64,000 nucleotides of DNA from Candidatus Bathyarchaeota archaeon (GTDB lineage: Archaea > Thermoproteota > Bathyarchaeia > Bathyarchaeales > Bathycorpusculaceae): positions 1-64,000 of the forward strand of contig JAOAIX010000008.1 in the NCBI GenBank assembly GCA_026414485.1. The letters are read 5' to 3'. The notes beneath the pieces are model-generated. The model did no database searches. It had not been told where the DNA came from and saw nothing but the letters and a program-made list of their open reading frames with translations. Positions 15,995-57,849 of this stretch are shown one piece after another. Each line of letters starts with the position of its first letter. The stretch's first letter is position 1. The position numbers and the translations under genes were made by a program.

Positions 15995-17287
15995 TTACCA
16001 AAAGTCTGCAAGGTTCTTTTGTTTTAAAGTTCGTGGAGACACCGTGGGCTCAGGAACATCTGTGTGAGAGTCAAGAACCAATTTGCCATAAACGCCGTCG
16101 AATCCTGGAATTACTTTCACTGAGCCTTCGCGGACTTTTATTATAGCTTCTGCAATTGAAGGCTCTACAGTTTTAATTAACTCCTCCTTAGAGGCATCAA
16201 TCAGAACTGTGTATTCGTCGCCAAATCGGTTCAAGAGAGCATTGTAAATTTTCCATACAGTTTGGGTTGAAGGCGAATCAATGTTCAGCACTGTAGCTAT
16301 TATTTCTGAAAGAGGCAGTAACCGCATAAACCCAGGTACGTTTTTTGCTTTGAAATCTGCGGGGCGGTCAGCTAGATCCTCCACTCGTTGTTCTACACCT
16401 TTAGTGAGTTCTCTGCGGCAAACAGGACAAATATTGTTGAATTTACGAGCTTCCGCAGGCGACAGAGAGACGTTGCAGTTGCGGTGTCCCGTCCAATGAT
16501 ATTTGCCGTAGGCAGGATCTGTCTCTATAGTGAATTTGAACCTTCGCGCGTCTTTAGTTCGTATGGCGTCTATAACTTCCCAGTAGCTTAAATTTTCTAG
16601 TTCAAAAACGTTGGCTTCTCTGCCAATTCTCCAAGGCCAAAAACTATGGCTGTCACTGTTCGAAACCAAAGTTAACCGGTCTATGTTACTGAGACGCCAA
16701 TTCATAGGAGGATCAGATGAAAGACCAGTTTCCAGAGCATGAATGTGTTTGGTCATATCTTGGTAGCAGTCGTCGATACTATCAAAGCCGCTGAAGGCAC
16801 CAAAAACGCTAAACCACGGCGTCCAGGCATGGGCAGGAAAAATCATGTTGGCGGTGGACACCTGCATAATTTCTTCCACAAGTTGCGGTGCAGTCATGTT
16901 AAGAATTGGCCTACCATCGCCGCTGAGACTGCCATGTTTGCAAAGTCTGTCATTAATTTGAATTGCATGATCCAAACTAGGAGTGAAAATGACATGGTGT
17001 ACTTTCTTTGTATGATTTTTATAATCGAAAATTGTGCAAACTTCTGTTGTTAACATGAAGTTGACTGAAGGCTCCACGTTGTTTGTCAACTTGAAAAGTC
17101 CTGTGGAAGAGTCAGAAACGAGGATTTCACGGATTTCGCGTAGCCATTGGGGGTGTGTAAAATCGCCTGTGCCGACAAGCTGTAAACCTTTAATTTTGGC
17201 GTATCGCGCAATTTCTCTAATGCCCATTTGCTGGCTGGTGGCTCTGCTGTATCGGCTGTGAATGTGAAGGTCGGCGATTACTCTGAT
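15995..17287 (-). CDS. Endonuclease Q (PHP-family DNA repair nuclease) with non-canonical start
   Basis: A 430-residue EndoQ-like protein. EndoQ cleaves 5' of deaminated bases (uracil, hypoxanthine) and abasic sites in archaeal DNA. The PHP metal site begins with ADLHIHSRYS; further metal or structural motifs are PAHAWTPWF and SNSDSHSFWP; a four-Cys zinc site is visible (CNVSL near CPVCRRE), then a helix-hairpin-helix-like tail. The last residues, QKNLADFW, fit a PIP box (Qxx-hydrophobic-xx-aromatic-aromatic) for PCNA. The first ATG in frame (17227) lies after the DLHIH metal motif, so it cannot be the start. Upstream to the stop there is no ATG, GTG or TTG. ATC at 17287-17285 sits 8 bases after GGAGG and is the best candidate. 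Confidence 0.88.
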   Translation of the reverse strand: MRVIADLHIHSRYSRATSQQMGIREIARYAKIKGLQLVGTGDFTHPQWLREIREILVSDSSTGLFKLTNNVEPSVNFMLTTEVCTIFDYKNHTKKVHHVIFTPSLDHAIQINDRLCKHGSLSGDGRPILNMTAPQLVEEIMQVSTANMIFPAHAWTPWFSVFGAFSGFDSIDDCYQDMTKHIHALETGLSSDPPMNWRLSNIDRLTLVSNSDSHSFWPWRIGREANVFELENLSYWEVIDAIRTKDARRFKFTIETDPAYGKYHWTGHRNCNVSLSPAEARKFNNICPVCRRELTKGVEQRVEDLADRPADFKAKNVPGFMRLLPLSEIIATVLNIDSPSTQTVWKIYNALLNRFGDEYTVLIDASKEELIKTVEPSIAEAIIKVREGSVKVIPGFDGVYGKLVLDSHTDVPEPTVSPRTLKQKNLADFW

Positions 17288-17295
17288 GTGGTTAT

Positions 17296-17300
17296 CCTCC
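17296..17300 (-). promoter_or_regulatory. Ribosome-binding site GGAGG of endonuclease Q
   Basis: GGAGG on the minus strand ends 8 bases before the ATC codon that appears to start the endonuclease Q frame. It marks the translation start region although no standard start codon follows. Confidence 0.7.
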
Positions 17301-17382
17301 GTGAGGTATTAACAAGTTTGGAGCTTTTGAGTGTTACTAAAGCGGGTTTAGATTCTAAGATACGCGTTACTAAAAGGAGTTA

Positions 17383-18477
17383 TTAGTTGAAAGTATATTT
17401 TGTTTCTGTTATTGTTCCGTTTTGCCACGTACCTTCCCAAGTAATTTTGGGAAAAGAGGATATACTTGTCTGGGTGTAGTTCACCTTTATCGTGTAAAGC
17501 GGATTATAAACTACAGGATACGTGATCTCAACAATCCACCATTGACCACCAACTGTACCATGCACAGTTTTGTAGACGTATTTTTCTGAGCCCACAAGCC
17601 CCATGTCAACTCTTCCGCCGGTCCAATTGAGACCCTGAATGTAAAAGGTGGTCTCGCTGTGTTTGGTCTTGATGTAAGACATTACCGCATCACGGATCAT
17701 AGGTTGACTCAAAAACTCAATAAAACTTGTTTCTGTAATTATGCCTTGTTGGTAGGTCCCTTGCCACTCAATTATGATATCTCCTTCCCAGAAGCTTGCA
17801 TTGACACTGTAGATGGGGTTCGTAACTACCGGATACTGCATGGTTACAGCCCAACTTCCACTGGTGTAGATGTAAGACGATGAGCCTATCAAACCTGTTT
17901 CTTGTCTGCCGCCAGCCCAAGAGAGGTTTGCCATGAACTGAACAGTTTCAGGATGATTAGTCTTCAGGTATAAAATTACCTCGTCTCGAATCTTTTCTTG
18001 AGTTGACAAGGAGGCAGGTTGATTGGCCATGTTTGAGGTGTAGCTTGTTTCAATAACGTTTTGGTTTTCGCAGAGACCTTGCCAAGAGACAGAACCCCCG
18101 CCTGACGAGTATGTGATTGTAATTGTGTATGTGGGGTTTGGAACTACCGGATAAGTGATGGAAACTACCCATTCGGTGCTTGTGTAGATGTAGGTTTCGC
18201 TGCCCAAAAGACCCGTTTCTTGCCTACCACCTACCCAAGACAGATTATTCATTAAGGGTACGGTTTCAGCGTGAGTGTTCCGTATAAAGTTCATGGCTAA
18301 ATCGCGAATTTGACTTACAGTATTATCTTCTGAAGCATAAGGTGCTGGCGTGAGTCCATTGGGAATAGGAGCAGCTCTGGGACTGTTAGAGGTTATAAGC
18401 GACCAAACGCCGTATCCACCAACGACTATAATGATGATCACTGCAATCATTATCAGCAAAATTTTTTGTTGCTTCAT
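17383..18477 (-). CDS. Membrane-anchored protein with three tandem copies of an unrecognised domain
   Basis: A 364-residue protein with an N-terminal membrane helix (residues about 6-28), a short Pro-rich linker, then three copies of a domain of about 95-105 residues at about 55-148, 160-254 and 258-362. Each copy has an amphipathic helix (IRDLAMNFIRNTH, IRDEVILYLKTNH, IRDAVMSYIKTKH), a WxGGR element, GSxxYxYxS, the signature YPVVxNPxY, and a closing WxGxxxxxxxxETxY strand. It should face the cell exterior. An isolated copy of the same domain is encoded upstream at 18594-19052, so the two genes are paralogous. TATA-like GTTAAATATTAATT lies near 18503-18518. I do not recognise the family; an adhesive or ligand-binding beta-rich role is a guess. 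Confidence 0.8.
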   Translation of the reverse strand: MKQQKILLIMIAVIIIIVVGGYGVWSLITSNSPRAAPIPNGLTPAPYASEDNTVSQIRDLAMNFIRNTHAETVPLMNNLSWVGGRQETGLLGSETYIYTSTEWVVSITYPVVPNPTYTITITYSSGGGSVSWQGLCENQNVIETSYTSNMANQPASLSTQEKIRDEVILYLKTNHPETVQFMANLSWAGGRQETGLIGSSSYIYTSGSWAVTMQYPVVTNPIYSVNASFWEGDIIIEWQGTYQQGIITETSFIEFLSQPMIRDAVMSYIKTKHSETTFYIQGLNWTGGRVDMGLVGSEKYVYKTVHGTVGGQWWIVEITYPVVYNPLYTIKVNYTQTSISSFPKITWEGTWQNGTITETKYTFN

Positions 18478-18593: not shown

Positions 18594-19052
18594 TCATTGA
18601 GCAAAGCAGTAACTGATCTCCGTGATGCCGTTGTTTATCCAGCGGCCTTCCCATTGAACGGTGTAGGGTATTGAAACACTACCTTCTTCAGCAGGAACAT
18701 TATAGTTTACAGTTATTATGTAAACAGGGTTGGCTACTAGGGGGTAGTTGATCTCCACAATCCAGCCTGAACTTGTATATACGTGTGTTTCTGCACCCAG
18801 CAGGTTTTTAGGTGTTACGCTACCGCCGCTCCAATCAAATTTGTCGATAAACGGCGCTACTTCAGGATGATTTACTTTGATGTATTCTACAGCAGAATCA
18901 CGAATTTGCCCGTGAATTGCAAGTTTGGGCACAGGTTTGTTTGGTTGCTGCTCATTTTGCTCGCGAACTGCACTTATTGCCCAGCAAGTTCCAGCGACAC
19001 TACTGAATACAAGCATCATGACTACTAGGGAAACAAATTTTGGATGTTTCAT
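18594..19052 (-). CDS. Secreted single-domain paralogue of the tandem-repeat protein
   Basis: A 152-residue protein with a signal peptide or membrane anchor (hydrophobic residues about 7-27) followed by one copy of the domain found three times in the neighbouring gene: IRDSAVEYIKVNHPE, WSGGSV, GAETHVYTSSGW, YPLVANPVY and WEGRW...ITEISY. The ATG has AAGGTGGTGG upstream and a TATA-like GCTATAAG near 19090-19100. The gap of about 115 bases to the next gene contains a second AT-rich promoter-like stretch, so the two may be transcribed separately. The function is unknown. The pairing with a three-domain paralogue suggests duplication of a surface module. Confidence 0.78.
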   Translation of the reverse strand: MKHPKFVSLVVMMLVFSSVAGTCWAISAVREQNEQQPNKPVPKLAIHGQIRDSAVEYIKVNHPEVAPFIDKFDWSGGSVTPKNLLGAETHVYTSSGWIVEINYPLVANPVYIITVNYNVPAEEGSVSIPYTVQWEGRWINNGITEISYCFAQ

Positions 19053-57425: not shown

Positions 57426-57495
57426 TTTGAGTATCGATTCAGAATTCATCAATACTATAAACTTGTTTTATTAATGTAAAATAAAGGAGGCTACT

Positions 57496-57849
57496 ATAAT
57501 CTCCCACGTTGAGAAAGCCCAACAGCAAACAAACGGAGGTTTCATATGCAAAAATATTGCCTGCCATAGAACTTTCTCTAAGCCTCTTAAAACCTTTAAT
57601 CTGAAGCAAAAAACAGGAATACCCTACTACTCTTGTCCTTACTGCTTAACCGAAATAACGCTTGACGAAAAACAAGATCCAACTTCACAACCAACTGCAT
57701 CAAACATACTAGAGACTCTTTGCAAATCTTCCGCTTGCAAACACTACATAGGATATCTCTGTGAAAGACCAGCTAAAGAAGATATTCCTGATGAATGCAT
57801 GCTTTGCGGAGTTCTGATTCAATGCATGCTGGGTAAAACAAAAAAATAG
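57496..57849 (+). CDS. Zinc-ribbon protein lacking any standard start codon
   Basis: The frame is open from just after a TAA at 57472 to TAG 57847-57849 and encodes about 117 residues with 11 cysteines. The first zinc site is FICKNIACHRTFSKPLKTF...YSCPYCLTEI (CX4C and CX2C); a second set is LCKSSACKHYIGYLC...ECMLCG. No ATG, GTG or TTG occurs in frame until near the end. GGAGG at 57486-57490 precedes ATA (57496) and ATC (57499); a second GGAGG at 57535-57539 precedes an in-frame ATA (57544). One of these is the probable start. It follows the transporter operon on the same strand. The function is unknown; a nucleic-acid or metal-binding role is plausible. Confidence 0.65.
   Translation: MISHVEKAQQQTNGGFICKNIACHRTFSKPLKTFNLKQKTGIPYYSCPYCLTEITLDEKQDPTSQPTASNILETLCKSSACKHYIGYLCERPAKEDIPDECMLCGVLIQCMLGKTKK

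Follow-up and report, generated by a model that had tools for sequence, protein, structure and literature searches.

A few bacterial genes have well-documented non-canonical start codons. The start of infC is AUU in E. coli and AUC in Streptomyces, and that of sigR is GTC (PMC5472188). In S. aureus, cvfC1 starts at AUU and ccpN at AUA, and both codons lower protein yield in this host (PMC13009471). The AUU start of E. coli pcnB keeps a nucleic-acid enzyme at a low level, as PMC13009471 relates from Binns and Masters (2002). Among archaea, an ATT start was assigned to the tubulin AtubA of the Asgard family Kariarchaeaceae from N-terminal alignment and the distance to the ribosome-binding site (RBS) (PMC13394414). 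This ATT was the only archaeal non-canonical start in the literature searched, a search of incomplete coverage that leaves novelty provisional.

Here, we describe a putative near-cognate start in the gene for an Endonuclease Q (EndoQ) homologue on a 64,000-nucleotide stretch of DNA (the window) from a Bathyarchaeia assembly of 1.53 Mb in 33 contigs. The gene displays four marks of conserved non-canonical starts of the infC, pcnB, sigR and cvfC1 type: no canonical codon from which the conserved N-terminus could be made, alignment with orthologue starts, a suitable RBS distance and conservation. As with infC and sigR, the candidate is a conserved near-cognate or other non-canonical start that gene finders misannotate (PMC5472188); infC, however, encodes an initiation factor and autoregulates, whereas EndoQ is a DNA-repair nuclease. 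The likeness to cvfC1 and ccpN lies in a conserved non-canonical start behind an extended Shine-Dalgarno (SD) motif in several unrelated genes, but that work is bacterial, involves IF3 and ribosome profiling and includes no ACG (PMC13009471), whereas the present starts are archaeal and read from sequence. AtubA is likewise archaeal with a deduced ATT, but it concerns one gene in one genome, with no conservation survey and no ACG (PMC13394414). As far as PMC13009471 describes it, pcnB would be the best functional analogue, although it is a single bacterial gene whose mechanism was tested there.

Endonuclease Q cleaves 5′ of uracil, hypoxanthine or abasic sites, an activity that is only predicted for the window protein. 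A phmmer comparison with Pyrococcus furiosus EndoQ (5zb8) aligned query residues 4-405 with chain residues 4-382 (E=1e-63), indicating homology over the PHP and Zn domains; residue 4 is matched with residue 4, and therefore the ATC falls at residue 1. The NCBIfam model TIGR00375 was matched over nearly its full profile at 239.1 bits, below its curated cut-off of 326.6, so the protein would be at most a divergent member by that model, and a Pfam search with it gave no match. The stop-to-stop frame (15998-17308, minus strand) reads YLTEDNH-I-RVIADLHIHSRYSRATSQQ-M(17227), and its 5′ end is TAC CTC ACG GAG GAT AAC CAC ATC AGA GTA ATC GCC GAC CTT CAC ATT CAC. No ATG, GTG or TTG occurs in it between the TAA at 17311-17309 and the ATG at 17227. 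Pairing of the window SD with the anti-SD AUCACCUCCU was calculated at -9.5 kcal/mol. The arrangement GGAGG-N8-ATC occurs three times in the 64 kb window against 0.82 expected by chance, and two of the three sites are putative starts (EndoQ and 57499-57501); alone, this is mildly non-random, and it is conservation that lifts the EndoQ case above chance. These readings bear out an earlier note made from the same DNA, which had placed the DLHIH metal motif upstream of the first in-frame ATG, had seen no canonical codon between that ATG and the upstream TAA, and had set an ATC start at 17287-17285, 8 bases after a perfect GGAGG (17300-17296). The coordinates are collected in the table.

Table. 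Coordinates of the EndoQ locus, the initiator tRNA gene and other genes with putative non-canonical starts. Plain ranges are window positions; ranges after a colon are positions in the named locus.
Feature	Position	Strand	Basis or remark
Endonuclease Q homologue, 430 aa	15995..17287	-	PfuEndoQ 5zb8, E=1e-63; PHP motif DLHIH = residues 6-10
ATC, putative EndoQ start codon	17285..17287	-	ATC/ATT kept at this column in relatives
GGAGG Shine-Dalgarno motif	17296..17300	-	Sequence; exactly 8 nt, then ATC
In-frame TAA, limit of possible start region	17309..17311	-	Sequence
First in-frame canonical start, ATG	17225..17227	-	Too far downstream; DLHIH metal motif would be deleted
Initiator tRNA-Met gene, 22-nt intron just after anticodon loop	29929..30029	+	aragorn, introns allowed; compared with G005 L192 and G012 L304
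Small Cys-rich protein, second window gene without canonical start	57499..57849	+	Putative ATC start 57499-57501; ATT in G003 L202
GGAGG, 8 nt before ATC 57499	57486..57490	+	Sequence
SudB-like flavoprotein (PRK06222)	L157:1346-2188		Putative ACG start; GGAGG upstream; orthologue columns
CshA-like DEAD helicase	L163:12190-13338		Putative ACG start; six of seven genus species have ACG, the other has ATG
SufS	L162:2780-4021		Putative ATT start, opposite ATG of G012
GINS protein	L153:13115-13675		Putative ACG start, opposite GTG of G003, one extra codon allowed
Lrp/AsnC-type regulator	L140:620-1597		Putative ATT start; conserved N-terminus

Two neighbouring proteins that look exported (17383-18477 and 18594-19052, minus strand) are built from a repeat about 110 aa long with the pattern ..NHPE..F...L.W.GG..........YIYTS..W.V...YPVV.NP.Y.I...Y, in three copies and one copy, respectively. 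A Pfam search with the 17383-18477 protein gave no match.

EndoQ was found in 57 of 61 relatives searched, and 80 additional loci were taken from named MAGs. Over 92 distinct loci, 91 of them readable and the last an unreadable contig artefact, the start column holds ATG in 33, TTG in 32, ATC in 13, ATT in 10, GTG in two and CTG in one; it is restricted to AUG and its single-base variants. Read at the exact column, ATC or ATT stands in all seven species of the window genus. A pattern search placed it at the corresponding site in 22 of the 257 Bathyarchaeia genomes, which belong to the window genus and five others, and among 300 genomes sampled evenly across the phylum, the pattern was confined to the class. 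The putative EndoQ start of an enriched relative, Ca. Bathyarchaeum tardum M17C-73-01 (L106), is ATC behind the leader GTGATTTAA-ATC. In 12 of the 23 ATC/ATT loci, the frame runs upstream into a stop without passing a canonical codon, and five of these twelve (L112, L113, L114, L117 and L118) have a TAA immediately before the ATC/ATT; about 10 of the 23 have some in-frame ATG, GTG or TTG a few codons upstream. On the EndoQ tree, at least eight switches between ATC/ATT and canonical starts are needed; closely related genomes differ in having ATG or ATC/ATT, and the entire window genus is in the ATC/ATT state. The earlier note had proposed a check in sister genomes, in which ATG in close relatives without conservation of ATC would have told against it; the seven species leave it standing, and its proposal of an ATC start draws strong support from where the SD lies, from the lack of other candidate codons and from conservation across independent assemblies. 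Two side observations concern the same column. ATC and ATT are freely exchanged: L112 and L113 encode nearly identical EndoQ proteins yet carry ATT and ATC, respectively. The single CTG belongs to B95_G9, from another family of the order (L084; L029 is the same locus), where the 14 codons between it and the upstream stop include no canonical one.

The leaders of the ATC/ATT loci are uniform in layout. In 19 of 22 loci, the SD and the ATC/ATT are 7-9 nt apart, exactly 8 in 12 of them, unlike the strong SDs of canonical orthologues, whose spacing is scattered. Where upstream in-frame ATG, GTG or TTG codons are present, most overlap the SD or lie <4 nt from it (as in AGGGGATGTT and AGGACGTGAG), and the remainder are positioned upstream of it. 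SD pairing averages -8.4 kcal/mol at ATC/ATT loci and -5.8 kcal/mol at canonical ones (Mann-Whitney p 5e-7, a value inflated because related sequences are counted), and it reaches -6 kcal/mol or stronger in all ATC/ATT loci compared with 49% of canonical ones. Across four phylogenetically independent pairs, the contrast agrees in 2.5-2.8 and disagrees in none, which is not significant. The L117 leader, AAGGACGTGATTTAA-ATC, has the same layout as that of P. abyssi aEF1A, GGAGGUGAUUUAA-AUG (PMC6237735). A conserved GTG-NNN-TAA mini-ORF that seemed to precede the ATC/ATT in five loci was reread as an SD (AGGANGTGAT) followed by an A/T-rich spacer.

In the initiation machinery, an altered initiator anticodon was rejected, as the anticodon loop is standard: the spliced anticodon arm reads TGGGCTCATAACCCA. 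The tRNA gene itself is missed by aragorn when introns are disallowed, and its intron varies among relatives, with none in G005. Loss of aIF1 was likewise rejected, since the factor is present throughout the genus; aIF1 discriminates against non-AUG starts, and we counted its presence against a near-cognate reading. The two genus aIF1 sequences L228 (G003) and L229 (G004) have CACGGTSK where all 18 others have CACGGTAK, and they carry a C-terminal Arg next to the last residue that is absent from those 18. The TSK and Arg changes may go together with relaxed start selection, which is offered as a lead and not a result.

EndoQ is not the only gene of this kind. The survey covered 660 kb of the window genome (about 43%), 192 kb of G003, 400 kb of G005 and 736 kb of G012, and it required a conserved N-terminus upstream of any canonical start. 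The SudB-like flavoprotein has ACG at its start in 12 of 30 orthologues read, namely all seven genus species and five other genomes, and the others have ATG, TTG or GTG at that column, one of them shifted by a codon; in G006, a TAA directly precedes the ACG. The corresponding motif, GGAGG-N5-12-ACG-TAY-RAR-ATH, occurs in 19 of 257 class genomes, from seven genera of one family only, and its reversed control gave no matches. At least two SudB-like paralogues are present in many genomes, and the close copies G004:C58 and G004:C74 both have putative ACG starts behind GGAGG. The SufS, GINS, Lrp-like and 57499 cases are weaker than those of the SudB-like gene and the helicase: each is based on one relative, or on none with a close N-terminus; in the 57499 frame, the first canonical codon is the 109th.

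Conservation between near species proved a poor screen, with many false candidates from conserved 5′ leaders and intruding antisense ORFs; pairs with the more distant G012 were therefore used, and shadow ORFs were removed. Among reciprocal-best pairs with G012, non-canonical starts that we judged convincing, out of 17 and 7 raw candidates, numbered 4/134 in the window genome (0/134 in G012) and 3/64 in G005 (0/64 in G012), counts that are not independent because both genus members share the same genes. The rejected candidates were short leader similarities, antisense frames, a tRNA and one ambiguous case. A comparison of SD enrichment among codon types, made on all long ORFs, was dropped for low power, because strong SDs accompany only about 14% of the ATG codons close to ORF starts.

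We think it very probable that EndoQ in the window genus is translated from near-cognate AUC/AUU by SD-anchored initiation with the ordinary Met-tRNAi. The strong SD 7-9 nt upstream would put AUC/AUU in the P site, where the initiator (anticodon CAU) would pair with it despite the third-base mismatch, and the protein should therefore begin with Met. Several unrelated genes of the clade would initiate similarly at ACG, AUU or AUC. The near-cognate start likely lowers initiation and would act as a constant brake on expression and not as a feedback loop; by analogy with pcnB or cvfC1/ccpN, EndoQ probably has a permanently low translation rate. Alongside the observed start position, its conservation, the lack of alternatives, the SD spacing and the intact initiator tRNA, we infer actual initiation at AUC/AUU, Met as residue 1 and a reduced yield.

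Translation might instead begin elsewhere in the frame: at an upstream canonical codon where there is one, at the ACG within the SD (17302-17300) or, to give a shorter protein, at ATG 17227. In G003, the nearest relative, an ATG precedes the ATC by two codons, and the roughly 10 of 23 loci with an upstream codon could use it, for example on a leaderless transcript. The window, however, has no such codon, 12 loci lack any alternative, and where upstream canonical codons exist they fall inside the SD, within 3 nt of it or upstream of it; a start at 17227 would also remove the conserved DLHIH metal motif. A start at another codon is quite unlikely on these grounds. A sequencing or assembly error that turned ATG into ATC would need to alter a single base, and the window does come from a metagenome-assembled genome, but 22 independently derived genomes, single-contig assemblies among them, share ATC/ATT at this column, and error is excluded by this conservation.

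Non-standard initiation is also very unlikely, whether by an elongator tRNA (such as tRNA-Ile GAU reading AUC/AUU, with N-terminal Ile or Thr) or by RNA editing to AUG. None of the 23 loci has ATA, which accounts for 24% of the Ile codons of these genes, and ATC and ATT are the codons that a GAU anticodon reads; the absence of ATA is weak evidence, as P is about 0.002 if loci are independent but about 0.11 with eight independent origins. C-to-U editing could turn ACG into AUG but cannot do so with AUC/AUU, and near-cognate reading by Met-tRNAi would explain both codon types. The earlier note had further hinted at autoregulation. Autoregulated or conditional expression through the rare start, like that of infC by IF3, has precedent in infC and sigR (PMC5472188), and aIF1, a fidelity factor that could have a global effect, is present. 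The hint nonetheless found no support: an infC-like loop is not indicated because the product is a nuclease homologous to EndoQ rather than an initiation or start-codon fidelity factor, and because functionally unrelated genes of the same genomes share the start type. Close genomes also switch between ATG and ATC/ATT, in line with the repeated changes on the tree, and regulation of this kind seems quite unlikely. Near-cognate initiation by Met-tRNAi remains our preferred reading, and such starts appear to be a habit of the lineage rather than an EndoQ circuit.

More broadly, one Bathyarchaeia clade may have relaxed start-codon selection throughout the lineage, a proposal for which we judge the chances to be even. 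Roughly 2-3% of its genes, some of them essential (GINS, SufS), would begin with ACG, AUC or AUU, tolerated through a strong SD at about 8 nt and possibly through aIF1 changes. As EndoQ and several unrelated genes lack a normal start codon, standard gene finders would cut their true beginnings, systematically truncating or missing N-termini in Bathyarchaeia; at the window EndoQ, such truncation would remove the metal motif. If true, a conserved multi-gene archaeal set with third-base (AUC/AUU) and second-base (ACG) mismatches would make the start fidelity of aIF1 and aIF2 testable by comparison.
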